Made by a program: the position numbers and the translations under genes
Source of the DNA: a virus
Length of the DNA stretch: 29,989 nt
Reading direction: 5' to 3' (one strand)
Virus record (IMG/VR): IMGVR_UViG_3300048110_000208
Coordinates: 1-29,989 of that record
Shown here: piece after piece, positions 859 through 28,754 of the stretch
Layout of the letters: each line of letters opens with the position of its first letter
Numbering within the stretch: the stretch's first letter is position 1
The notes under the pieces: generated by a model
Databases searched by the model: none
What the model was told of the DNA's origin: nothing
The model's input: only the letters and a program-made list of their open reading frames with translations

Positions 859-884
859 AAAAAAAGGGAGCCTAAGCTCCCTTT
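859..884 (-). terminator. Intrinsic terminator after the porin gene
   Basis: A perfect 9-bp stem (863-871 with 876-884) closes a 4-nt loop. On the minus strand it runs into a T tract (865-859). It lies 25 nt after the porin stop codon. Confidence 0.85.
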
Positions 885-908: not shown

Positions 909-1685
909 TTAGAAGTTAAATGATAGTGTTACAGATGGTGATAGTTCTTCTCTATCTGTATCATAATCTACTTCACCTGTTAAGCCAATACCGTTTAAGT
1001 CACGTGTATGTGATACACCAACGTGTTGAATTGTGTCGTTTTCGTCACCGTTCAAGTATGCTGTTAGACCCATTACTGTTGTGTCTGCTTCATATGCCCA
1101 TGTTGATAGTGCATATGTTACTGTGCTACCTACTGCTAAGCCTGAGATTTCTGTACCTGCTTGTACTGCATATGTATACTCTTCTGTTGTACGGTTATAA
1201 TCAACTGCACCAGTTAAATCTGCAATAGCTGTACCAAATGAATATGCACCTTGAATGTTTGTAATTTCTGATGCGTCTGTGCGGATATCTGTGAAGCCTA
1301 GTGCAACTGATGCACCTAATGCACTCACTTGTACTGACTCTTCCATTGCAGCATTTGTATCTGTTAATGTGTCAAAGCCTGCATCTGCTACAGCCTCTGG
1401 CATAATGCCGCCGTGATCACCGAATGATACTGTTGCGCCAGCAACAGTTGTACCGATATGCCATTCATCAACACCAACTGATGTATCATCAACTGAGTTA
1501 AATGAGATTGCACCAAATGCCAAACCGTTATCTGATGCTACATCAAGATTTACTGTTGTTTTGCCTTTGTACTTGTCTGTTGTTTGATCTTTAGCAACTT
1601 CTACTTCGATTGAAGCGTCCAAATCTGCTGCGAAAGATGTTGTAGCCATTGCAATAGCGGCTACCGTGGTTAGTAGTAGTTTCAT
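909..1685 (-). CDS. Phage-encoded outer-membrane porin-like beta-barrel protein
   Basis: This 258-aa protein begins with a clear Sec signal peptide (MKLLLTTVAAIAMATTSFAA, cleavage around residues 19-20 after an A-x-A-type site). The mature part is rich in alternating polar/hydrophobic beta strands with G, T, D and N, and it ends in aromatic phenylalanine (SVTLSFNF), the C-terminal signature used by the BAM machinery. These traits fit Gram-negative porins, although it is shorter than the usual 300-400 residues. It should be exported and inserted in the host outer membrane, where it could alter nutrient uptake or block the receptor used by competing phages; both roles are inference. AAGGAC lies about 8 nt before the ATG. 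It has its own sigma-70 promoter (1765-1793), a leader hairpin and a strong terminator. Confidence 0.75.
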   Translation of the reverse strand: MKLLLTTVAAIAMATTSFAADLDASIEVEVAKDQTTDKYKGKTTVNLDVASDNGLAFGAISFNSVDDTSVGVDEWHIGTTVAGATVSFGDHGGIMPEAVADAGFDTLTDTNAAMEESVQVSALGASVALGFTDIRTDASEITNIQGAYSFGTAIADLTGAVDYNRTTEEYTYAVQAGTEISGLAVGSTVTYALSTWAYEADTTVMGLTAYLNGDENDTIQHVGVSHTRDLNGIGLTGEVDYDTDREELSPSVTLSFNF

Positions 1686-1826: not shown

Positions 1827-2906
1827 TTAAAACAACAGTTTTTCTACGCTACCACTTACTAATGATTTGTTCTCTATATCAATAACTTCTTGTAGACTGA
1901 ATGTCATATTGCTATCACCTTTAATATACTCAATTACTGCTTGTGCATCTGGTGATATAGGAAGATAGTTCTCTGTAACGAATTCAATTAACTCTGCTTT
2001 AATATTGGTATTCTGTATGGAAAGATGTGATGGATATTGTAGAAAATCAAACCCTATAGCATCGTCGCCAAACTCTTGCATAGAATATCCTATAACTTCG
2101 TGCAGTCTTTTAATATTTAATATACTAATTACAGTGTGCATTTTGAAGTTAAAGTTAACACCTGTTATATTCTTAAAGAACTCAATTGTTTTAACAACTG
2201 TTTCCCATTTATGCGGAGGTCTTAATATTTCATTTACTTCACCAATACCATCAATACTAAAAATTATAGTTACTTTGTTAAATTGTTTCCAGAACTCAAT
2301 AACTTTTTTACTAGGTGATACAGTAGCGTTAGTATGATATTCTAATTCTATATCTGATGCTGAAGATTTACTGATTAGTTTTTCTAAGAATGGTACGTGT
2401 TGCTTATCAATCATTGGTTCACCGCCAACAAGTTTAACAAGACGCAATTCTGATAAGTCACTATCGTACTTGTCTAAATCAAAGTTATCAATTACCAAGT
2501 CTGGTTTGATGTTTGGGTGTATTAACTGTTTCCATTTACTACTGAAGTCTTCATTGCACATTCTGCAAGTTAAATTACAATGTGTACTGAATGCAGTTTC
2601 AATGTATCGTATCTTTTTATCGTTGCTCTGAAATCTTTCATTCATTTCATTACGTAGTGATTTCACACCTGCGTCTTCAAGATTCCAACATGCATTGCAC
2701 TCTGGCACAGCATCATTGTTAGTCATTCGATTTCTTACATCATCAAACAACTCTGAATTAAATGCATTTTCGATGCCGTCTATTAATTTAGGTATTTTTA
2801 TATTTTTATTTGGTATTTTAGAAGTATCAAAAATACAACATGGGAGTACACTACCATCAACGTGTAGTCTGGTATGATTCCATAATAATGAACATGTATT
2901 AGTCAT
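1827..2906 (-). CDS. Radical SAM protein with twitch/SPASM-like extra Cys
   Basis: This 359-aa protein carries the radical SAM cluster motif C110-x3-C114-x2-C117 (CNLTCRMC) and a GGEP motif about 50 residues later that binds the SAM amino group. An N-terminal block with C5 and C23-C24 (PCC) plus C70-x2-C73 resembles the arrangement in twitch-domain radical SAM proteins common in marine phages. Family members are thought to modify peptides, sugars or lipids; no substrate can be read from the sequence. A start at 2906 has no Shine-Dalgarno, but a TATAAATA box lies 5 nt upstream, so the mRNA may be leaderless. A second member is at 13324-14643. Confidence 0.8.
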   Translation of the reverse strand: MTNTCSLLWNHTRLHVDGSVLPCCIFDTSKIPNKNIKIPKLIDGIENAFNSELFDDVRNRMTNNDAVPECNACWNLEDAGVKSLRNEMNERFQSNDKKIRYIETAFSTHCNLTCRMCNEDFSSKWKQLIHPNIKPDLVIDNFDLDKYDSDLSELRLVKLVGGEPMIDKQHVPFLEKLISKSSASDIELEYHTNATVSPSKKVIEFWKQFNKVTIIFSIDGIGEVNEILRPPHKWETVVKTIEFFKNITGVNFNFKMHTVISILNIKRLHEVIGYSMQEFGDDAIGFDFLQYPSHLSIQNTNIKAELIEFVTENYLPISPDAQAVIEYIKGDSNMTFSLQEVIDIENKSLVSGSVEKLLF

Positions 2907-3173: not shown

Positions 3174-4052
3174 CTACCTTTTAATGGAGTCGTCTACATC
3201 CAAACTATCATATATCATCGCATGTTTATGTAATTCATCACGCATTGGCATTAACTTTTGGTCCCAAAAAGCAAATTTTCGTTGCTTAACGCATTCATCA
3301 TGCAAAATTTTAATCCAATTTCTTTGAGCTATTCTAACAAGTTTTGATGTTCTATTGCTCCAATCATGATCAAACATCTCTGTTACATAATTATAGTATT
3401 CTTCTGGGCTAGGATGGCCATCAGTAAAGTTTTCATGTACTAGCTTTCTGTCTCTTTCTTGTTTTAATCCTATATTATGTTCCCATAATACGTGATTCAT
3501 ACTAGGTAATATATTATCTAACACTGGTTTATACATTTCTTGCATTAGAGTATAAGTCTCACTGTTAAATTGATCATTTGCCCATTGATTTGCATAGCTA
3601 AAATCTACCATTTTAGTCATATGGTATGGAGAGCGGTGTTTAATAAAATCTTCCGCGCTTTTAATTAATGCAAAGTCTCTAACATATGAACCTATTTCAC
3701 TAACATAATTTTTAACAAATGACTTGTCATATGTTGACTGTGTAAATATATTTCCTGGAGAAACCCATCCGCCATGTTTTTCAGGTAAATATCTATCTTC
3801 TCTACATACGTTAGTCCATTCTACCAGAATCAAATCATCTTTATTAAATTTATATACATTATCAGCCTGCATAATAATATTATGTATATATGGATTACCT
3901 GCGCCCGACCTACCGAGGTTTCTAAACTCTGCATCTGGAAACTCAGATCCTATGATATTTGCCCATGTTCCCCATGCATAGTGCGTGTAACTGCACCCAA
4001 AAGAAAAAATTCTCTTGGGTGTATTAATAGCTAATTTTATTTTTGTATTCAT
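3174..4052 (-). CDS. SGNH/GDSL hydrolase-like protein, FGCSYT type
   Basis: This 292-aa protein opens with FSFGCSYTHY (S21 in the position of the GDSL nucleophile). NLGRSGAGN follows (Gly block II, around 45-53), then LVEWTNVCRED (N81, block III) and FTDGHPSPEEY near residue 210 (Asp/His block). This is the order of the SGNH hydrolase blocks, in the FGCSYT variant. SGNH enzymes remove acyl or acetyl esters from lipids, glycans or proteins. The C-terminal 80 residues (NRTSKLVRIAQRNW...) look like an added helical segment. The start has no clear Shine-Dalgarno; it follows the 51-aa membrane gene by 8 nt. It shares the fold, but little sequence, with 4209-5150. Confidence 0.6.
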   Translation of the reverse strand: MNTKIKLAINTPKRIFSFGCSYTHYAWGTWANIIGSEFPDAEFRNLGRSGAGNPYIHNIIMQADNVYKFNKDDLILVEWTNVCREDRYLPEKHGGWVSPGNIFTQSTYDKSFVKNYVSEIGSYVRDFALIKSAEDFIKHRSPYHMTKMVDFSYANQWANDQFNSETYTLMQEMYKPVLDNILPSMNHVLWEHNIGLKQERDRKLVHENFTDGHPSPEEYYNYVTEMFDHDWSNRTSKLVRIAQRNWIKILHDECVKQRKFAFWDQKLMPMRDELHKHAMIYDSLDVDDSIKR

Positions 4053-4060
4053 TTATTTTA

Positions 4061-4216
4061 TTACTCTGACTTCCAGATTGTCCATAAACCATATGCAATT
4101 GCTGCATATGCAATTAAGTTCACAGGTACGATAATCATCGCAACACCTGTTGCTACTAGTGCAACACCATCAAGTGTTGTACGTTCTGTCAGTCTGTTTT
4201 TAATCCAATTAATCAT
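4061..4216 (-). CDS. Small membrane protein (51 aa)
   Basis: The short ORF reads MINWIKNRLTERTTLDG, then a strongly hydrophobic stretch from about residue 18 to 47 (VALVATGVAMIIVPVNLIAY...) and a charged end WKSE. It is preceded by GGAG 7 nt before the ATG and overlaps the 3' end of the upstream SGNH gene by 8 nt, as expected for translational coupling. One long or two short membrane helices are predicted by eye. No function is known to me; a role in the envelope next to the two SGNH proteins is only suggested by position. Confidence 0.65.
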   Translation of the reverse strand: MINWIKNRLTERTTLDGVALVATGVAMIIVPVNLIAYAAIAYGLWTIWKSE

Positions 4217-5150
4217 TGTATTCTCCATTTTTTATATAATTTGTAAGCACTTCACTGATTTGTGAATGTCCATCTACATTCCAATGCCCACATCCTAAAT
4301 TACTTAAATAGTTTAATTTTTTTACACGGGCTAAATTATTAATATGTGTATTAATATGGGCTACTGTAGTGTTGTTGCTCAGTTCCTGATATATACTACC
4401 CTTTTCATTTAATTCAAAGTAACTCAGATAGTTGTTATTTAACTTGATATCAGTTAAGTATTTATTAAATAAGTCTATATTAGAGTCTAAAGTAAATCCT
4501 TTATCACTTACAGACTGCGAATAGCCAAACTTATCTGCAATATTAGGTGTGATAAAGCCAGATTTTATACTTTGTTTATCTATCAGTCTTGCCGTATCAT
4601 TTAATAAATCAAACATTAGATGCTTACGATCAGATAATAATAACTTTATATTATAATATATTTGTATAGTCTTAAAGAATGCATACTCTTGTGTGTATAA
4701 CTTCGTCCAATAATCTTCCCAAAACCTGGACCTAGTATTATAAAGTCCAGTATGTTTACGATATTCTCCCCAATCAGGTGATCCAGGATGATGGCCGGTG
4801 CGAATAGTGCCATAATGGTATGCGAATTCATCTTTTCTATCAGTTACACGCTGTAAGAAATCATGTCTCTCTGGTGCTGTGAAATTTATTAAAAAGAAGC
4901 ATTTTCTAGTATCATTATTACGCATGAATTCAGAAAGCAAGACATAGCTTGTTTCATTGCTTGCACCCATAACTCCAAGATTTATGTAGTCTTTAAATCC
5001 TAATGTATCTTTTAAAAAGCGGGTATAACTATTTTCGTTACACGCACTTCGCCATTCTGAATCGGCGGGAAAATCATTTTGTGATATTGTCCCCTGACCA
5101 AAGGTAAAGCTATCACCAAAACTTACAAGTGTATAATCACTATTGTCCAT
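4209..5150 (-). CDS. SGNH/GDSL hydrolase-like protein
   Basis: This 313-aa protein starts with VSFGDSFTFGQG, the GDS block with S14 as nucleophile. INLGVMGASN (about 56-65) gives the block II glycine and FLINFTAPERHD (about 86-97) replaces block III. The C-terminal GHWNVDGHSQ carries D293 and H295 as candidate catalytic Asp/His. The usual spacing there is D-x-x-H, so the exact dyad (D293/H295 or H289) is uncertain. The family hydrolyses ester bonds on lipids or polysaccharides. Its ATG overlaps the deformylase stop codon (TAATG), so it is translationally coupled within the operon that starts at the promoter near 8156. Confidence 0.6.
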   Translation of the reverse strand: MDNSDYTLVSFGDSFTFGQGTISQNDFPADSEWRSACNENSYTRFLKDTLGFKDYINLGVMGASNETSYVLLSEFMRNNDTRKCFFLINFTAPERHDFLQRVTDRKDEFAYHYGTIRTGHHPGSPDWGEYRKHTGLYNTRSRFWEDYWTKLYTQEYAFFKTIQIYYNIKLLLSDRKHLMFDLLNDTARLIDKQSIKSGFITPNIADKFGYSQSVSDKGFTLDSNIDLFNKYLTDIKLNNNYLSYFELNEKGSIYQELSNNTTVAHINTHINNLARVKKLNYLSNLGCGHWNVDGHSQISEVLTNYIKNGEYND

Positions 5151-5662
5151 TACTTTTTCTGACGTGAAATTCTTTTAAGTTTTTCTCTACGCTTTGACTT
5201 AGCAAGACTTAATGTTGTACCGCCAACACGTTCTTGGAATAGAACACCATCCAAGTGGTCCATTTCATGCTGAATTGCTTGCGCCCACACACCAACAAAC
5301 TTAGTTGCTTTACGTACACCTTGCGCATTAGTATATTCTAGTAAAACTGCATTTTTACGTTTTACTTTAAGTTCAAGATGTGGGAAAGATAAACATGCTT
5401 CTGTATATGTTTCTTCTTCTGCATCTTCTGCGATAGTCATAACAGGATTAATACATACTACAAAACCCTGAGATTTATGTCCGACTACAAATACTCGTTC
5501 TGCTAATCCTACTTGCGGCGCCGCAAGACCAATACCATCATGCTCTTGCATTGTAGTAATCATATCAACTGCAAGTTGTTCTGTATGTTCAGAAACAATA
5601 TGATCTGTGCATTTCTGTTTTAGTATAGGATCATTTTCACCTACTAGTTTATATTTTGTCAT
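5150..5662 (-). CDS. def: Peptide deformylase
   Basis: The enzyme removes the N-formyl group from nascent proteins in the cytoplasm and uses Fe2+ or a related metal. All three family motifs are present in its 170 residues: GIGLAAPQ (43-50), EACLS (88-92, with metal ligand C90) and QHEMDHLDG (H132, E133, H136). The length matches bacterial deformylases. Deformylases are known from cyanophages and other marine phages, where they are thought to support synthesis of phage or phage-altered host proteins. Motif II reads EACLS instead of the usual EGCLS. The gene overlaps the CDF transporter by 14 nt and the SGNH gene by 1 nt. Confidence 0.93.
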   Translation of the reverse strand: MTKYKLVGENDPILKQKCTDHIVSEHTEQLAVDMITTMQEHDGIGLAAPQVGLAERVFVVGHKSQGFVVCINPVMTIAEDAEEETYTEACLSFPHLELKVKRKNAVLLEYTNAQGVRKATKFVGVWAQAIQHEMDHLDGVLFQERVGGTTLSLAKSKRREKLKRISRQKK

Positions 5663-6554
5663 AGTATAATTCCTCGTCTGGACATTCGTTATGTTCTACT
5701 TGTATAGTTGAATGAAAAATATTAAACTCTTCAATCAAAATCTTTTTAACAGACCAAATTGTTTCATTACAATTACCTCCGTCTATCATTACTACATGTG
5801 CTGTTAATGCAGGCTGACCACTTGCTATTTCCCACATATGAATATGATGTATTTCTTTTACATCTTCTACTGAAGTCATAATAGCACTTTTAATATCACG
5901 CTCATTAATATTTTCTGGTTTACCCATCATCATAATACGAACACAATCAGCTAATAATTTAATACCACTTCGTAAAATTAAACTAGCCAGGATAATACTT
6001 ACAATAACATCAGCAAGATACCATTCTGTGAAGTAAATAATAATACCACCGATAATAGCACCTATACTACCCAGAATGTCCATTAATACGTGTAGAATAG
6101 CTCCACGCATATTTATGTTATCGTCGCTATTGTTATGTAATATTTTAAATATTACCAAGTTTACAATAAGGCCTGCAATTGCTATTGGCATCATTATTGT
6201 TACATCGACTATTTCTACATGTATGAAACGATATACTGCTTCATATATAATATAAGCAAATATAATGAACCATAGCAATGCATTAAAGAATGCTGCGATC
6301 ACTTCACTACGCATATATCCATATGAGTATGTTTCAGTGGGTGGTTTACGACTTAACCAGAAGCCGAACAATGCAATACCTAGTGCAAATGCATCTGTTA
6401 GAAGGTGCATAGCATCGCCAAAGAGCGCCAGTGAGTTACTATAGTAAGCTCCAGCTAGTTCTATAGCAACAAATAACAATAGAATAACAACTGAAATTGT
6501 CATTGCACGTTCATTATTGGTTTTAGTTCTAATATGATAATCAGGGTGTTTCAT
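5649..6554 (-). CDS. Cation diffusion facilitator, CzcD/ZitB-like zinc exporter
   Basis: This 301-aa membrane protein has about six hydrophobic helices and a cytoplasmic C-terminal domain from about residue 215. Helix II contains ALFGDAMHLLTDAFAL (D47, H50, D54) and helix V ILHVLMDILGS (H155, D159). The H-x3-D pairs are the four-residue metal site of zinc-preferring CDF proteins such as ZitB and CzcD. The C-terminal HHIHMWEIASGQ resembles the family's regulatory domain. It should exchange Zn2+ (or another divalent metal) for protons in the inner membrane. Phage-borne CDF genes are unusual. It is encoded between the epimerase (5-nt gap) and deformylase (14-nt overlap) genes, and the deformylase and YggX in the same operon are both metal-linked. 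Confidence 0.9.
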   Translation of the reverse strand: MKHPDYHIRTKTNNERAMTISVVILLLFVAIELAGAYYSNSLALFGDAMHLLTDAFALGIALFGFWLSRKPPTETYSYGYMRSEVIAAFFNALLWFIIFAYIIYEAVYRFIHVEIVDVTIMMPIAIAGLIVNLVIFKILHNNSDDNINMRGAILHVLMDILGSIGAIIGGIIIYFTEWYLADVIVSIILASLILRSGIKLLADCVRIMMMGKPENINERDIKSAIMTSVEDVKEIHHIHMWEIASGQPALTAHVVMIDGGNCNETIWSVKKILIEEFNIFHSTIQVEHNECPDEELYYDKI

Positions 6555-6559
6555 AGATA

Positions 6560-7468
6560 TTATTTATTTTCTTTATAATAAGCAGTGATCCCATCAAGTT
6601 GATTTACTTTTGGTTCCCATCCCAGTAACTTCTTTGCTTTTGAAATATCTGCTAGTGTTTCTGATGCGTAACCCTTAGGCTTCTCTGTATGCTCTACAGT
6701 AAGTCCTGGGTACTCTTTACGCAAGATATCAACTACTGAATTAACTGATATATTAGTACCAGTTCCTAAATTAAATATCTCACTCTTTACTTTAGATTCC
6801 ATACTAGCAATAATACCTTCTGCTACATCACTTACATGAATATAGTCACGCTTGTATTCGCCATCACCGTGTACAGTCAATGCTTCTCCGTCTTTAGCTA
6901 GTCTTGCAAACTTAGCAATCATCAATCCCTTATCATCACATCCGGGTTGTTCTGGACCATATACTGTAAAGAAACGCAATACATTATAGTTGACATCAAA
7001 CATATTTTTATATTGTCTACATAAATGCTCACCAAACAATTTAGTCATAGCGTAGTAATTAAGTGGGTCTGGCTTATGATAAGGTTTGTGGGGTGCTGGA
7101 TTGTTACCGTATATAGAACTACTACTGGCATAAACAAATTTACGAATACCAACCGCATGTGCGGCAGTTAGCATATTCTTTGTGCCAGTAACATTATTTT
7201 CATAATAAGAGTCAGGGTCAATAAAACTTTCTGGTATACGAGGCTTTGCGGCAAGATGAATAATATAATCTTGGCCAGCAGATGCCATTACACACTTAGC
7301 CGCATTTTGTATATCACCTTTAATGTACTTCACTAGTTTAAAGTCTTCTGGCTTTTCAGCCTTGTCTAACACAGTAACAGCGTATCCACGTCTAATTAAA
7401 TTAAACACTACTTCACGTCCAACAAATCCTGCACCACCGGTTACTAATACTTTACCCTTTAATTTCAT
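6560..7468 (-). CDS. NAD-dependent epimerase/dehydratase, UDP-glucose 4-epimerase-like
   Basis: This 302-aa extended short-chain dehydrogenase has the Rossmann motif GGAGFVG (11-17), a DIQN segment after the second beta strand, HLAAKP (71-76), a run of serines (115-118) as catalytic Ser/Thr, and the active-site pair Y139-x3-K143 (YYAMTK). It ends with a LADISKAKKLLGWEP segment typical of UDP-sugar 4-epimerases of the GalE/WcaG group. It likely interconverts nucleotide sugars for surface polysaccharide or virion glycosylation; the exact sugar cannot be told. It is co-transcribed with the thioesterase (17-nt overlap), and a glycosyltransferase lies in the window at 9281-10111. Confidence 0.88.
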   Translation of the reverse strand: MKLKGKVLVTGGAGFVGREVVFNLIRRGYAVTVLDKAEKPEDFKLVKYIKGDIQNAAKCVMASAGQDYIIHLAAKPRIPESFIDPDSYYENNVTGTKNMLTAAHAVGIRKFVYASSSSIYGNNPAPHKPYHKPDPLNYYAMTKLFGEHLCRQYKNMFDVNYNVLRFFTVYGPEQPGCDDKGLMIAKFARLAKDGEALTVHGDGEYKRDYIHVSDVAEGIIASMESKVKSEIFNLGTGTNISVNSVVDILRKEYPGLTVEHTEKPKGYASETLADISKAKKLLGWEPKVNQLDGITAYYKENK

Positions 7469-7850
7469 TTATTATCTTTCTTGGAATTCGTACTATGTTT
7501 CTAGTAACAGGATCAATTAATGAAAAATTAAATTCGCCAATTGCTGCTGTAACCCATTCAGTACTTTTAATTTGTCGTGTCTTTAAGATACTGCTAATTG
7601 TTAGTGTACCCGGCGTAATACTTAGTACTTCTGCATATACTTCAGCATACTCATGTTGAAATACCGGTACTTTATATTTTACTGTTGCACTACTCGTTAC
7701 AAGAGTTGTGTCTGGTATTCTATTCATGAACAGTTCATTGATAAATGTCACTGCACCTAAGTCCATTAATTGAAATGTATATCCGCCATTAATGCTACCA
7801 TTAGAATTTACTTCATCATATGGTATAACTGTTTTATAAGTTAATTTCAT
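7452..7850 (-). CDS. Hotdog-fold acyl-CoA thioesterase-like protein
   Basis: The 132 residues contain YDEVNSNGSINGGYTFQLMD (11-30), which matches the D-x-N-x-x-G-x-x-x-G-G active-site block of YciA/4HBT acyl-CoA thioester hydrolases. A beta-rich remainder (SSATVKYKVPVFQHEYAEV...) follows, as expected for a single hotdog domain. The reaction would be hydrolysis of acyl-CoA or acyl-ACP thioesters. The start is just after YggX with a 4-nt overlap. A phage use could be to adjust lipid or CoA pools, which is inference. It could also be a non-enzymatic hotdog protein, because the residues beyond the first block are divergent. Confidence 0.75.
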   Translation of the reverse strand: MKLTYKTVIPYDEVNSNGSINGGYTFQLMDLGAVTFINELFMNRIPDTTLVTSSATVKYKVPVFQHEYAEVYAEVLSITPGTLTISSILKTRQIKSTEWVTAAIGEFNFSLIDPVTRNIVRIPRKIINEIKG

Positions 7851-8131
7851 CGCAGATTAGGAACACTCGGATCTATATAATCATCTGGCATTTCAATTTC
7901 TTCTCCTTCAAACAAGAACTTGTTACGTTGTTCTGCTAAGAATTTACGTGCTTCAGCATCCATTAAATTCAAACGGTTCTCGTTAATAATCATTGTCTGA
8001 ATGTTAAGCCATTCGTCCCATGCTGCCGAACTTACGTTCTCGAATATATGTTGTCCATCAGCACCAGGAAAAGGTGCTTTCTCTAACTGTGTTAATTCTT
8101 TCTGATATTTAGCGCATAATATAGTAGCCAT
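7847..8131 (-). CDS. yggX: YggX-like Fe(2+)-trafficking protein
   Basis: This 94-aa protein matches YggX along its length: an early Cys (MATILCAKYQ, C6), a P-G-x-x-G block (FPGADGQHIF, 21-30), AAWDEWLNIQTMIINENRLN (36-55) corresponding to the Trp-rich Q-T-M-L-I-N-E core, and KFLFEGEE (71-78). E. coli YggX is 91 aa. YggX protects Fe-S clusters and is linked to the labile iron pool and oxidative stress. The start at 8131 is chosen because GGAGGAG lies 6 nt upstream; the longer frame to 8173 would begin inside the -35/-10 spacer. It is the first gene of the operon driven by 8156-8184. Phage copies are rare to my knowledge. Confidence 0.9.
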   Translation of the reverse strand: MATILCAKYQKELTQLEKAPFPGADGQHIFENVSSAAWDEWLNIQTMIINENRLNLMDAEARKFLAEQRNKFLFEGEEIEMPDDYIDPSVPNLR

Positions 8132-8155
8132 ACTACTCCTCCATAATTTAATACT

Positions 8156-8184
8156 ATTATATATCTTAAACATACCAATGTCAA
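8156..8184 (-). promoter_or_regulatory. Consensus sigma-70 promoter of the yggX operon
   Basis: TTGACA (8184-8179), a 17-nt spacer and TATAAT (8161-8156): both hexamers are full consensus. The predicted start near 8149 leaves an 18-nt leader with GGAGGAG. It should be a strong early promoter. Confidence 0.85.
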
Positions 8185-8204
8185 GTATTATTTTTTACTT
8201 GACA
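8179..8204. promoter_or_regulatory. Inverted repeat over the yggX promoter -35 (candidate operator)
   Basis: TGTCAAGT (8179-8186) and ACTTGACA (8197-8204) form a perfect 8-bp inverted repeat with a 10-nt T-rich spacer, covering the -35 of the minus-strand promoter. A second small palindrome (TGCATCAGATGCA) lies at 8217-8229. This could bind a dimeric regulator of the divergent promoters. Confidence 0.4.
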
Positions 8205-8252
8205 TTGTGTCACAGTTGCATCAGATGCATACCGAGTCTTCGCAGAATGCAG

Positions 8253-8287: not shown

Positions 8288-8432
8288 AATAATAGTAGAG
8301 AAACACACTGTCGTTTCACTATTCGGCACTGGGAAAGACTAGGGCAGGCGCAGACTGCCATATCAAACGAATGACACCCTGAAAAGACAGGGGGTATTGC
8401 TTTCCTCAAGCATCCTAAAATGGAGAAATAAA
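8288..8432 (+). ncRNA. Structured 5' leader of the small-gene operon (candidate regulatory RNA)
   Basis: The roughly 145-nt leader holds no convincing ORF but several helices: TCGTTT (8311-8316) with AAACGA (8365-8370) as a long-range closing stem; an internal hairpin GGCAG/CTGCC (8343-8347/8355-8359, 7-nt loop); CCCTG/CAGGG (8377-8381/8388-8392); and TGCTT/AAGCA (8398-8402/8408-8412) with loop TCCTC, ending 9 nt before the GGAG ribosome binding site. GC content is clearly above the surroundings. It does not match a riboswitch class I know. The intergenic stretch 8132-8432 otherwise contains the two divergent promoters and palindromes. Confidence 0.5.
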
Positions 8433-8618
8433 ATGACACTAAACTTATTTGGTGCCTTTGCAAATCTTTTTGGCGGACGCAAAATGTCTGCAAGTTACAG
8501 AAAAGATTTATTGACTTGGGCAAAAATTGAATACGCAAACGATTGGCAGTTTGCTTACAACTATATGATTGAAAACGATGGGCAAGCGCCTACTAGACAC
8601 ACACAAGGAATAAACTAA
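8433..8618 (+). CDS. Small hypothetical protein (61 aa), first gene of plus-strand operon
   Basis: The ATG at 8433 is preceded by GGAG with a 7-nt gap; an in-frame upstream ATG at 8397 lies within the leader hairpins and has no ribosome binding site. The product (MTLNLFGAFANLFGG... then a helical, aromatic-rich region WAKIEYANDWQFAYNYMIEN) is not one I recognise. Its stop overlaps the next start (TAATG). Its position after an early-type promoter, in a cassette of tiny genes, suggests a host-modulating role, which is inference. Confidence 0.7.
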   Translation: MTLNLFGAFANLFGGRKMSASYRKDLLTWAKIEYANDWQFAYNYMIENDGQAPTRHTQGIN

Positions 8619-8866
8619 TGCTTAATAGTATTATCACATCACTAATTAACTTTAATAAAAATAGAGAGTATAGAGCGGCTGTTCGTACTACTATCAAAGA
8701 ACTTCAAATGCTAACTAACCATGAGCTAAATGATATCGGCATCTCACGTGGCGACATTTATCATATTGCACACAGCTCATACAAGAAACCAGAGCAAGTA
8801 ACACTATCTGATATTTCAGAAATTACAAATATCGAAACTAATGCTAACTTGAAAGGTTTTGTATAA
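8618..8866 (+). CDS. DUF1127-family small protein
   Basis: The 82-aa product contains ELQMLTNHELNDIGISRGDI (residues about 28-47), the diagnostic DUF1127 core (L-x-x-L-x-x-x-x-L-x-D-I-G-[IL]-x-R-x-D-I). DUF1127 proteins are small, basic and abundant in Alphaproteobacteria; the Rhodobacter member CcaF1 binds RNA and affects RNA turnover. A phage copy could interfere with host RNA metabolism. AAGGA lies 12 nt before the start, and the ATG overlaps the previous stop and the stop overlaps the next ATG (TAATG at both ends). The C-terminal 35 residues after the core are not part of the usual short family form. Confidence 0.8.
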   Translation: MLNSIITSLINFNKNREYRAAVRTTIKELQMLTNHELNDIGISRGDIYHIAHSSYKKPEQVTLSDISEITNIETNANLKGFV

Positions 8867-9048
8867 TGGCTACACTAGTAATGAATAAAACATCTAATTT
8901 AGGTAAGATGGTAAGTAGAGGCTTAGTAGCATTTGCAATGGGTGCATGGGCATTTGGTGAATCAGCAGGCAGAGCAAGAGCAGCTGAAGCACTTTGGAGA
9001 GAAGGCTACCATGAAGAAGCAAAACGTTTAATGTTGGAGGACAAATAA
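8866..9048 (+). CDS. Small hypothetical protein (60 aa) with GYHxxAK motif
   Basis: MATLVMNKTSNLGKM is followed by a hydrophobic stretch (GLVAFAMGAWAFGESA, about 19-34) and a charged helix ending in WREGYHEEAKRLM. The GYHxxAK motif recurs in the next ORF (SGYHNAAKDI), which suggests duplication. The hydrophobic part is short for a membrane helix but could be amphipathic. It overlaps both neighbours by 1 nt (TAATG), so it is translationally coupled. I recognise no function. Confidence 0.65.
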   Translation: MATLVMNKTSNLGKMVSRGLVAFAMGAWAFGESAGRARAAEALWREGYHEEAKRLMLEDK

Positions 9049-9182
9049 TGTTTAAGAGATTTATGAAAGCAATGGAATACCGTTCATACTGTATGGCTAT
9101 TCGTCAACTGCGTCAAAGCGGTTACCACAATGCAGCAAAGGATATTAGTGAATTCAAACGCACTATGTATCCAACGTCATGA
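9048..9182 (+). CDS. Small basic hypothetical protein (44 aa)
   Basis: The ATG at 9048 overlaps the preceding stop (TAATG), and TTGGAGGA lies about 11 nt upstream. The product, MFKRFMKAMEYRSYCMAIRQ followed by LRQSGYHNAAKDISEFKRTM and PTS-type end residues, is basic and probably helical. It shares L-x-x-x-GYH-x-x-AK with the previous protein, so the pair may be paralogues or partners. No known family was recognised. Confidence 0.6.
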   Translation: MFKRFMKAMEYRSYCMAIRQLRQSGYHNAAKDISEFKRTMYPTS

Positions 9183-9280: not shown

Positions 9281-10111
9281 TTATGAGCTAGTGAATATAT
9301 TACTGACACTACCGTTAAATGTAAAGTGTCCTATGTGATCAAGATTAACAATAGGATCTAACCAAACTTCCCCACCCAATGCTTGCCAACGTCTACAGAA
9401 TGCATAGTCTTCTGATAGATAACGCTTTGTTTCTGGTTCATGCATACAATCAAAGAATAGATATGTCCACTTAGCAAACTCTGGATCCATACTCAAGTCA
9501 TTATTAAAGTATAAGTCTGGATACGATGCAATCATCTTTTCAATTACTTCACGCTTGATAAGCATAAAGCCTGTTGCCGCATCTTTAAGTTTTACAAGAC
9601 CATCTTCTGTACGAATAGTTCCTCTTTCACTCTTATCAAAGTTCCATTCAAAGTTCAATGCATAATTAGATGCAAGTCTCTGCAAATCACCCACAGATAC
9701 AGAATCGTTCTCAGATGCCGCTTTAGTCATTTTATCCCAATTTAAATCTTTCTTGGGATATGCACCGACAATAATATCTTTATCATGTTGTATCATATGT
9801 AATACATCGATAGGATCAAAATTAATATCTGCATCAATGAACATCAAGTGTGTTGCATTGGGATTAGCCATCATGTATGCAACCATGTGACATCTTGCAC
9901 GTGATATTAATGACTCGTTAGCACTTGTTGTAATTGTGTATGGAATTTCATGTTTAGTAAACAGCATATGTGCTTTACACCAAGAACGAAAGTATGGTTC
10001 AGTTACTTGTCCTCCGTAACATGGTGTGCAATAATGTACATGTGTATTTTTGATAAAGTCTAAATCAATCTCTTTGCGATATGCACGGAGGCTGTCGATG
10101 ATGTTACTCAC
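9281..10111 (-). CDS. GT-A fold glycosyltransferase-like protein
   Basis: The 276-aa protein has a beta strand plus D-x-D motif HLMFIDADINFDP (D93, D95) for metal/nucleotide-sugar binding. RARCHMVAYM precedes it, and a later acidic motif YLSEDYAFCRRWQ is followed by a His in LDHIGHF, the pattern of family-2-like GT-A enzymes found in many T4-like marine phages. It probably transfers a sugar to a virion protein, DNA or host surface glycan; the acceptor is unknown. The start codon is GTG (10111) with weak GGA upstream. It has its own promoter at 10144-10172 and shares the terminator at 9256-9277. Confidence 0.75.
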   Translation of the reverse strand: MSNIIDSLRAYRKEIDLDFIKNTHVHYCTPCYGGQVTEPYFRSWCKAHMLFTKHEIPYTITTSANESLISRARCHMVAYMMANPNATHLMFIDADINFDPIDVLHMIQHDKDIIVGAYPKKDLNWDKMTKAASENDSVSVGDLQRLASNYALNFEWNFDKSERGTIRTEDGLVKLKDAATGFMLIKREVIEKMIASYPDLYFNNDLSMDPEFAKWTYLFFDCMHEPETKRYLSEDYAFCRRWQALGGEVWLDPIVNLDHIGHFTFNGSVSNIFTSS

Positions 10112-13323: not shown

Positions 13324-14643
13324 TTACATACCACTTCTTTTAAGCATGTCCCACCATTCTGGTGCGACTCGTTCAAAACTAATATCTCTATGCGGATTTA
13401 CAAAATTATGTGCTTTATCTTTGGATTGAATCATATCTGTAAATTTTAAATCTGTCGTAGGGTCATCATTCATTCGGTCTACAATACATTTTAATTTATT
13501 TCTATTATCATCTTTATACTTTGTATCATCTATAATTGATTGTACATGTTCTAATGCATGTATTTTTGCTTCACCTCTGAGATTTGCAATATCCATCCAA
13601 TCAGGACCATAGACAATGTTTGTTGATAACTGTACATCATCGATGCCAGCATCTGACATTCTATCATTTAATTCATTAATAAAATCAAGTAATGGCCTCA
13701 TATTATGAACATTCATAATACTTGTTGTTATCGCAACTCCCATGAATGAGTGTTTGTTATCTTTCTTTCGTCTTATACAATAATCTGCGAAGCCTAGAAC
13801 ATTTTTTACCTGCTCACTCCATACTGAACCCGTTCGAACATATTCTCCTAGTTCTTCTGTAGCATCTAAACTAAAATCAAACGTTATGCGTGAGAATTTA
13901 TCCCATATATTTTCTTTATACTCATCAATTCCTATTGTTCCATTTGTTATATATTGTATTGTAGGATGTACATTATTTTCAGCCATCCATTCTAAAAATT
14001 TATAATGTTGTGGTATTATTAAAGGTTCACCGCCAGTAAATTGAATGTATTTTAAGTCTTTGGATGCTTCTTTAATATGATCCCAAGTAGTCTCATCATT
14101 AATCCAGGAACTAAGTGCAGTCATTTTTTTAATATAATTTTTGTTTACAACACCGTCATTTATATATGATTCTTCTCTTAATAGTTTATTAGAGACAGGA
14201 CCTGAGCATGATCTACATTCAAGATTGCATTTTGCTCCTAATTTCAATTCCATGCTTGTTAATTTAACATCTTTGTCTGCATCTGGGAACTCAGTGTTTG
14301 CCCAAATTCTTCTACTGCCCGACCCAGACTTTTCAGTGCGGTAACAATCATGACAGCCAGCTGCTGGTATATTCTTTGCTGATTTTTTTCTCAGCATTGA
14401 CCAATCTTTGGAATGCAATATAGGTGTTAATCCAGCATCTTGTATCCAATGGAATTCTGGAACTTTAGCCCAATGAAATGTTTTTTTTACTGAATTATGA
14501 TATGGAGTATCTTTCTTCGTATGTTCATGTTCGTCATCTGCTTTTTTCCAATCGTAATTACAACAAGGTAGTACTGCACCTCGTCCTGTAACATTCACAT
14601 GTGAAAAGGGCATTATACATCTAAACTCTTTATCATCATCCAT
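13324..14643 (-). CDS. Radical SAM protein with twitch-type N-terminal Cys block (439 aa)
   Basis: The radical SAM motif is C139-x3-C143-x2-C146 (CNLECRSC), followed by the SAM-binding FTGGEPLI. The N-terminal block RCIMPFSHVNVTGRGAVLPC with C27-C28, and C97-x2-C100 (CHDC), parallels the smaller radical SAM protein at 1827-2906 and may hold an auxiliary cluster. The C-terminal third is likely a partial TIM-barrel end plus unknown helices. Substrate unknown. It overlaps the upstream 149-aa gene by 8 nt and ends just before a late box, so it is expressed with tail genes, which makes a virion protein or surface molecule a possible target. Confidence 0.82.
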   Translation of the reverse strand: MDDDKEFRCIMPFSHVNVTGRGAVLPCCNYDWKKADDEHEHTKKDTPYHNSVKKTFHWAKVPEFHWIQDAGLTPILHSKDWSMLRKKSAKNIPAAGCHDCYRTEKSGSGSRRIWANTEFPDADKDVKLTSMELKLGAKCNLECRSCSGPVSNKLLREESYINDGVVNKNYIKKMTALSSWINDETTWDHIKEASKDLKYIQFTGGEPLIIPQHYKFLEWMAENNVHPTIQYITNGTIGIDEYKENIWDKFSRITFDFSLDATEELGEYVRTGSVWSEQVKNVLGFADYCIRRKKDNKHSFMGVAITTSIMNVHNMRPLLDFINELNDRMSDAGIDDVQLSTNIVYGPDWMDIANLRGEAKIHALEHVQSIIDDTKYKDDNRNKLKCIVDRMNDDPTTDLKFTDMIQSKDKAHNFVNPHRDISFERVAPEWWDMLKRSGM

Positions 14644-27532: not shown

Positions 27533-28108
27533 TTAAAAATAACAGTATGCACTGACCCTAAAATCATCAGCGGATACGGTTGCTTGAAGTCCATGTGCTT
27601 GTAGCTTACCATTTATAGAAAAATAACCTGTATTAGGTTTATAATTAAATGCATATCTCACTTTTAAGTCTTCGGTTTTTTGTAAGTGCCACTTCTGTGC
27701 AGAATCATTAACAAGAACATCTTCATCTGTTACATCATAAAATACAGTTCCTAGTTCAGGCCTTGCATTTCCGATATAAATTTGCATAGCAGATGCAACT
27801 GCAGGATTATCTATATGTGCTGGCATAGTAAAGCCTTCGTTATCTAACCAAAATTTAACATCGTTACATTCAAATTTTTTAATAATTTGTTCCCTAATTT
27901 TTTCTAGTATCGAATTGTCATATGGTATAAGTTCTTTACGTGGTGAATGCTCCTGCCAAGGAACATCGGATGTATCATATAAAGAAACATCCTCTTTATT
28001 AAAATCTTCAATTAATTTTGCATCAACTGCGTTTTCAATAATAAAAAGGTTGTTTTCTTTATCGACTGCTTTTTTAATATGTTGTGATAATATGATCTGC
28101 GATCCCAT
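27533..28108 (-). CDS. 2OG-Fe(II) oxygenase-like protein (191 aa)
   Basis: H98-I-D100 in FTMPAHIDN, distal H172 in QAHGLQATVS and R184 in FRVSAYC form the iron and 2-oxoglutarate binding set of the double-stranded beta-helix oxygenases; W88 and aromatic strands (MQIYIGNARP, YAFNYKPNT) fit the fold. The enzyme may hydroxylate proteins, nucleobases or lipids; the substrate is not known. It overlaps ClpP by 35 nt, and AGAGGA lies about 11 nt upstream of its start. It is not closely alike to the oxygenase at 258-821, so the phage carries two distinct members. Confidence 0.72.
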   Translation of the reverse strand: MGSQIILSQHIKKAVDKENNLFIIENAVDAKLIEDFNKEDVSLYDTSDVPWQEHSPRKELIPYDNSILEKIREQIIKKFECNDVKFWLDNEGFTMPAHIDNPAVASAMQIYIGNARPELGTVFYDVTDEDVLVNDSAQKWHLQKTEDLKVRYAFNYKPNTGYFSINGKLQAHGLQATVSADDFRVSAYCYF

Positions 28109-28754
28109 GCTTAATTGTTTCCTCTGGATTCAACCAACAATCACTTTCTGGTAACAACCATTTGCGAATGTATGTTTCATTCTTGCCAGTACATTTCTTA
28201 TAATGATCCATCATACGTTCTGTTGACAGTTCGAACTCTTTGACAATAGACATTAGTTCGTGTTCTTTACCACGTGAACCCCAAGAGTATTGGTGTGACA
28301 TTACGCTAGTATTCTGTGTAATATAACGATGTCCTTTTTCACCTGCCATCATTAGAAGTACTCCGCAACTAGCAATCATTCCCATACCGTATGTATATAC
28401 TGGGATTTCACTTTGCTTGATTACATCAATTAGATGGAATGCACTGTTTACTGCACCACCCGGTGAATTGATATACAGATGAATAATCTCTGGCTTTGTA
28501 TCCTCTGGCATCATATTATATTCCATAATCATTTTGACTAATGGCATACAGTTTTCTTGATTAAACTCTTTGTCCATAAACAAAATGCCGTTATCATACA
28601 ATGCTTCACCGGGTTTCTTTGGTGGCATTGGAGGTTGCGGCATAGGCATAGGTGGGGGAGCAGGTACCACTTTTGGTGTTGGTATTACTTTATTTGGCTC
28701 AGTTTTGCTCGGAGCTTTTTTTGTTACTTTTTTCTTTTTAGGTTCTTTAGCCAT
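28074..28754 (-). CDS. clpP: ClpP-like serine protease with Pro-rich N-terminal extension
   Basis: The ClpP core shows INSPGG (95-100, oxyanion strand), the nucleophile in GMIASCGVLLMMAG (S129), the His in VMSHQYSWG (H154) and the Asp in LPESDCWLNPEETIKHGIAD (D205): a complete Ser-His-Asp triad. The first 48 residues are a Lys/Pro-rich low-complexity segment (KKKKVTKKAPSKTEP, PAPPPMPMPQPPMPP) absent from normal ClpP. ClpP degrades proteins with ClpX or ClpA; no such ATPase is encoded here. It could form mixed rings with host ClpP, act as a prohead-type protease, or redirect turnover of tagged proteins. It is in the replication operon, 13 nt after the primase gene. Confidence 0.9.
   Translation of the reverse strand: MAKEPKKKKVTKKAPSKTEPNKVIPTPKVVPAPPPMPMPQPPMPPKKPGEALYDNGILFMDKEFNQENCMPLVKMIMEYNMMPEDTKPEIIHLYINSPGGAVNSAFHLIDVIKQSEIPVYTYGMGMIASCGVLLMMAGEKGHRYITQNTSVMSHQYSWGSRGKEHELMSIVKEFELSTERMMDHYKKCTGKNETYIRKWLLPESDCWLNPEETIKHGIADHIITTY

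Follow-up and report, generated by a model that had tools for sequence, protein, structure and literature searches.

The window, a stretch of viral DNA of 29,989 nucleotides recorded in IMG/VR, carries on its minus strand a set of eight tightly packed genes behind a perfect TTGACA-17-TATAAT promoter (Table 1). All eight open reading frames, their overlaps, and the promoter are present as the earlier note had described them. In order of transcription, the genes specify YggX, a hotdog-fold thioesterase, an epimerase, a CDF exporter, a peptide deformylase (PDF), an SGNH-type protein (SGNH_B), a 51-aa membrane protein (TM51), and a second SGNH-like protein (SGNH_A). Neighboring frames overlap by 4, 17, 14, 1, and 8 bases, and the two remaining gaps measure 5 and 8 bases. 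The promoter matches the consensus at 12 of 12 positions and is the sole such site within the first 12 kb of the window; the number of such sites estimated from base composition is ~0.02. A 12-bp inverted repeat overlaps the -35 box. We considered it as an operator and dropped that idea: the nearest relatives do not conserve the palindrome, which is therefore probably no essential operator.

One strand, overlaps or short gaps, a single promoter, and no internal terminator mark the eight genes as a probable operon. No terminator lies at position 3174, and three genes in the same direction come next. Transcription may thus extend to the terminator at 884-863, in which case the unit would comprise up to eleven genes.

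Table 1. Features at and around the operon, in positions of the window.
Feature	Position	Strand	Basis or remark
Alphaproteobacterial-type permuted tmRNA, cut by contig end	1..252	-	RF01849 89 bits, RF04321 93 bits
Intrinsic terminator AAAGGGAGCTTAGGCTCCCTTT-TTTT	863..884	-	First clear minus-strand terminator; same one after porin in L003
Predicted outer-membrane porin-like protein	909..1685	-	Signal-peptide-like start and composition
Radical SAM/SPASM protein, possible read-through gene	1827..2906	-	PF04055, PF13186
Small protein w2915, 62 aa	2915..3103	-	Same place after TM51 in 12/31 loci
SGNH_A, SGNH-like	3174..4052	-	Motifs alone (GCS..., ...DGH)
TM51, 51-aa membrane protein	4061..4216	-	Motif ERTxxDG...WTIWKSE
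SGNH_B, SGNH-type esterase or acylhydrolase	4209..5150	-	Weak PF00657 (Lipase_GDSL), below curated cut-off
Peptide deformylase (PDF), long form, basic C-terminal tail	5150..5662	-	PF01327 2.4e-38
CDF exporter, ZnT/ZitB-type	5649..6554	-	Cation_efflux + ZT_dimer; HxxxD H50/D54, HxxxD H155/D159
GalE-like nucleotide-sugar epimerase (SDR)	6560..7468	-	PF01370 1.6e-57; YxxxK at Y139/K143
Hotdog-fold acyl-CoA thioesterase, YciA/HI0827-like	7452..7850	-	Pfam 4HBT
YggX, Fe(II)-trafficking / oxidative damage protection protein	7847..8131	-	PF04362 (Iron_traffic) 1.4e-33
Ribosome-binding site GGAGGAG of yggX	8136..8142	-	Direct sequence reading
Sigma70-type promoter TTGACA-17-TATAAT	8156..8184	-	12/12 match
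12-bp inverted repeat overlapping -35 box	8176..8207		Sequence
Divergent cluster, four small genes, one DUF1127 protein	8397-9182	+	Conserved opposite operon
Putative glycosyltransferase-like gene GT9281	9281-10111	-	phrog_1574; no Pfam family

Host-like gene content raises the idea that the contig is bacterial rather than viral. We regard that as extremely improbable: the window also encodes a PAAR-tip protein, a tape-measure-like protein, a primase, and a DnaB-type helicase that is 55% identical to that of the jumbo phage PA5oct, and 48 IMG/VR contigs carry the epimerase. The phage collection contains no nucleotide-level relative of the window. Signals regarding the host diverge, as the tmRNA is alphaproteobacterial in type and YggX is closest to gamma- and betaproteobacterial sequences.

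Gene order and inheritance in related phages

Searches with YggX and CDF yielded four related contigs, and the CDF profile added nine more. The epimerase profile retrieved the 48 IMG/VR contigs, which reach 342 kb; one is only distantly related, and nearly all share the same region. Removal of near-copies left 31 distinct loci, including the window. No departure from the order YggX-hotdog-epimerase-(variable slot)-PDF-SGNH_B-TM51 occurs in any of these 31 phage loci, and all genes lie on one strand. The epimerase is present in all 31 loci, TM51 in 27, YggX in 26, PDF in 22, SGNH_B in 20, the hotdog gene in 19, w2915 in 12, and CDF in 10; SGNH_A occurs in 1 of 31, the window itself. The 17-nt overlap between the hotdog and epimerase genes is kept in 15/19 loci and the 1-nt overlap between PDF and SGNH_B in 13/20. 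Likewise, when the best upstream site is taken, TTGnnn-17-TAnnnT lies 20-60 nt before the first gene in 26/31 loci, compared to a mean of 0.8 loci and a maximum of 4 in 200 shuffles; some loci are closely related, so the count does not represent 31 independent events. The conserved promoter supports transcription by the host polymerase. From its type we infer that expression could be early, a promoter by itself being no proof of timing.

Variation is concentrated in the slot between the epimerase and PDF genes, which spans 29 to 3230 bases and harbors CDF, a DUF6552 protein, a radical-SAM protein, or one to three family-less proteins with a GAGxNF motif. CDF is thus a clade-specific slot gene. 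One clade (L017-L025, with records of up to 146-155 kb) keeps only epimerase-CDF-TM51. YggX, hotdog, PDF, and SGNH_B are absent from it and are therefore dispensable there. A core of epimerase-CDF-TM51-porin to which the other genes were added was considered and dropped after the epimerase scan revealed the wider common order and the clade-specific nature of CDF. The elastic slot, together with the sporadic occurrence of the SGNH_A and radical-SAM genes, would fit unlinked cargo that had gathered, without shared regulation, at an insertion hot spot, but the order shows zero violations and both the overlaps and the promoter are conserved, which makes such an assemblage very improbable. The flanking genes are also syntenic, and thus conservation of order alone is no proof of joint function.

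Two of the protein families are nearly private to the operon within the viral collection. Specifically, the PDF profile retrieved 31 viral contigs, 31/31 in the same phage group, and 39 of the 43 contigs retrieved by the YggX profile belong to the group, the rest being two other phages (one of them twice) and a cell-like fragment. Operon proteins diverge in step with the product of the flanking phage gene GT9281 (correlation of distances, r 0.58-0.84) and with the epimerase (r 0.63-0.85), at permutation p of 0.001-0.002. The hotdog protein and SGNH_B evolve fast. The operon YggX proteins form one clade (100/99) on a long stem among gamma- and betaproteobacterial sequences, in a tree of few columns that leaves the exact sister unsure and whose cellular sample consists of sequences matching one peptide pattern. 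The best cellular matches of the YggX profile, at 46-61%, are likewise gamma- and betaproteobacterial genes.

Conserved order, overlaps, and promoter, the private PDF and YggX profiles, and the tracking distances together indicate that the operon is real and long inherited, not a recent one-off capture. The further proposal that the genes were acquired as a unit from a common donor is not supported: genes are gained and lost singly, the GC content and codon use of the operon resemble those of other phage genes, and searches of cellular sequences with the CDF and YggX profiles revealed no matching donor cluster. With the CDF profile, no cellular relative could be confirmed, and hence no donor for the zinc exporter emerged. 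The simplest reading is an old acquisition followed by vertical inheritance with single-gene gain and loss.

Flanking genes and the tmRNA

The porin-like protein encoded downstream of the operon matches no Pfam, PHROGs, or NCBIfam profile. In several clades, homologs follow the operon on its downstream side (14 loci in all); in L024, TM51 and the porin have a terminator between them. A few genes past the porin, L025 encodes a periplasmic binding protein (PF12849, phosphate-binding type). Identification of a 323-aa gene product of L025 as a PiT phosphate transporter stays a guess, as there is no Pfam match. The window specifies a second radical SAM/SPASM-like protein at 13324-14643, recognized by cysteine motif only.

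Upstream, GT9281 is present in all 48 related loci and is 34% identical to a gene annotated as a glycosyltransferase in an Ochrobactrum phage. In the 5' leader of the divergent cluster (8297-8430), hairpins seem to covary with those of L002/L003. A riboswitch was considered there, and the Rfam search came back empty. A manA-type RNA (RF01745) lies at L046:14727-14933 in a related phage locus.

The tmRNA at the contig end scores above the gathering threshold of RF01849. Relatives carry complete copies, located a few kb downstream from the epimerase gene, and their tags include ANNNYAPEMALAA; the tag frame was read in these relatives, the window copy being incomplete at the contig end. SmpB was not found beside the tmRNA in 11 records, and thus host SmpB is presumably used.

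Other genes of cellular character accompany the operon. A ferredoxin-like gene lies downstream in 24 loci, and IscU/NifU_N scaffold genes occur in 2 of 11 records (L034:10839-11069 and L235). Genes for IF-3 and ClpX are phage-encoded downstream of the operon at L064:15237-15767 and L057:15183-16436, respectively, and the window specifies a protein of the ClpP family (28074-28754) that may alternatively serve as a head maturation protease. A PrkA-DUF444 (YeaH)-SpoVR cluster, complete at L003:3712-8469, adjoins the operon in ~20 related loci; the window does not have it there. The tmRNA, ClpX, IF-3, ferredoxin-like, and IscU genes, near the operon or elsewhere in relatives, lead us to speculate about an early layer of housekeeping replacement that would join maturation and rescue of proteins (PDF, tmRNA, ClpX, the ClpP-family protein, and IF-3) to upkeep of iron and Fe-S (YggX, ferredoxin, and IscU). 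We hold this idea to be doubtful. If it is true, such a layer would keep phage translation functional while the host fails.

The encoded proteins

The families that the earlier note assigned to YggX, the hotdog protein, the epimerase, CDF, PDF, and the 51-aa membrane protein stand. Its SGNH assignments fare less well, with SGNH_B a weak match and SGNH_A recognized by motif only, with no profile match in Pfam, PHROGs, or NCBIfam.

Phage YggX aligns to its family profile over its full length, carries the conserved N-terminal cysteine (Cys6, invariant), scores above the NF003817 cut-off, and matches the PA5148 and YggX structures. The PDF possesses all three motifs of its family, GIGLAAPQ, EACLS, and QHEMDH (consensus GxGxAAxQ, E(G/A)CLS, and HExDH). 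Both long and short C-terminal forms occur in the phage group, and a sister clade ends at residue 142; viral PDFs with a short C-terminus can be active, and activity in vivo is known for some viral PDFs (PMC5591237). The CDF exporter has the attributes of the zinc type, namely HxxxD in TM2, HxxxD in TM5, and a ZT dimer domain, and is far more like ZnT4/ZnT1 than FieF. Zinc is therefore its likely substrate. It scores below the ZitB equivalog NF002923 (248.9 bits versus 408 needed).

These three proteins could be taken as the center of a metal and Fe-S homeostasis module, in which YggX, the zinc exporter, a probably Fe-dependent PDF, and the nearby ferredoxin and IscU would keep the metal enzymes of the infected cell working. 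The prevalence of YggX (26/31), the ferredoxin-like gene downstream in 24 loci, the IscU genes in two records, and the zinc-type signature of CDF all fit. Nonetheless, CDF is present in just 10/31 loci and IscU in 2/11 records, the metal use of PDF is deduced from its family, and the hotdog protein, epimerase, SGNH, and TM51 have nothing to do with metals. We judge a dedicated metal module to be quite unlikely.

The remaining proteins act, as far as can be predicted, on acyl groups and sugars or reside in the membrane. The hotdog protein is closest to the HI0827 acyl-CoA thioesterase by profile and by fold (model pLDDT 94) and is a YciA/HI0827-like acyl-CoA thioesterase in predicted substrate class. 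The best solved relatives of the epimerase are UDP-glucose 4-epimerases, and it reaches no equivalog cut-off (GalE TIGR01179, 176.7 bits versus 262.3 needed). Ser14 and His289 of SGNH_B are invariant across 11 sequences. Its predicted structure is weak, is nearest to CE2/TesA, and bears a weak likeness to carbohydrate esterases; its N-terminus, MDxSxYTLxSFGDSF, lacks an evident export signal. TM51 passes no profile family in Pfam or NCBIfam searches. The 51-aa start given for it in the earlier note is likely correct, because relatives keep the same 8-nt overlap with the upstream gene.

Envelope remodeling, also put forward in that note, would mean that the epimerase, the SGNH enzymes, the hotdog thioesterase, TM51, and the downstream porin together change surface glycan, acyl groups, and the outer membrane, for example to block superinfection, with PDF, YggX, and CDF as riders. 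Consistent with this notion, the epimerase (31/31) and TM51 (27/31) are the most constant genes, the porin-like gene comes next in several clades, the putative glycosyltransferase lies upstream in 48/48 loci, and SGNH_B faintly recalls carbohydrate esterases. At best, however, it accounts for the downstream porin and, within the operon, for the epimerase, SGNH, and TM51. Neither YggX (26/31) nor PDF (22/31), both almost as widespread, has an envelope function, and the zinc exporter does not fit. Moreover, SGNH_B has no evident export signal, the glycosyltransferase belongs to no Pfam family, and the terminator in L024 parts TM51 from the porin. We consider an envelope module unlikely.

Proposed function and comparison with known phage systems

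The explanation that we find fairly probable is that of a translationally coupled, vertically inherited operon of large uncultured marine phages that serves as an early host-takeover toolkit rather than as one pathway. The anatomy of the operon, its order and promoter, the intact catalytic motifs, and the loss and gain of single genes can be read directly from the DNA. With respect to function, unmodified host RNA polymerase would read the operon early from the strong sigma70-type promoter, so that several mutually independent helper enzymes would be delivered together. The deformylase would mature the flood of new phage proteins, YggX would protect iron and Fe-S enzymes from oxidative damage, and the YciA-like thioesterase and the SGNH enzyme would release acyl groups. 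The epimerase would supply UDP-sugar, perhaps to the neighboring putative glycosyltransferase (9281-10111). The epimerase-PDF slot would accept clade-specific extras, in the window the zinc exporter.

PDF, epimerases, tmRNA, and cation efflux genes are each known singly from phages. Cyanophage S-SSM7, Vp16, and pelagimyophages encode PDFs that, as here, carry the catalytic motifs, and pelagimyophages count PDF among their core genes (PMC7029224). Known phage PDF genes belong to a DNA-metabolism operon or accompany photosystem genes (PMC7029224), and also sit beside 2OG-oxygenases, whereas the PDF of the window lies between the epimerase or slot and SGNH_B. A shortened C-terminus is usual for viral PDFs (PMC5591237); the window PDF, by contrast, keeps a basic C-terminal tail. 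The phage nucleotide-sugar epimerases of phrog_540 and cyanophage ACG-2014f belong to the same SDR epimerase family as that of the window, whose closest counterpart in the phage collection is only 37% identical. Phage tmRNA was already known (PMC4131195, PMC9723777), as were phage cation efflux genes, as phrog_7308.

For YggX, we found no such precedent. Our literature search found no paper on a phage YggX, and the three YggX hits in the phage collection look like host DNA filed as phage. The phage proteins share the full-length family match and the cysteine with YggX of gamma- and betaproteobacteria and differ in forming a separate long-stemmed clade. The operon holds the first phage YggX family found in the collection and literature searched. 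Neither the gene combination nor its conserved order was found there, and the searches revealed no isolate of the phage collection with the operon, in keeping with the earlier impression that the combination is unfamiliar among phages.

The huge phages Mar_Mega_1 and the LR745206/LR756502 megaphages resemble this group in their large genomes. Mar_Mega_1 carries a tmRNA (PMC9723777), and the SpoVR of this group shares 48-52% identity with its counterparts in LR745206, LR756502, and LR756504. Searching the phage collection for YggX gave no match in the Mar_Mega_1 or LR745206/LR756502 megaphage records, and thus the operon is apparently absent from them. Compared to the single auxiliary genes known in phages, the arrangement described here holds six to eight unrelated housekeeping functions in constant order within one operon, and with its one cargo-exchanging slot it offers a defined setting in which to ask what host functions are limiting for a large marine phage.
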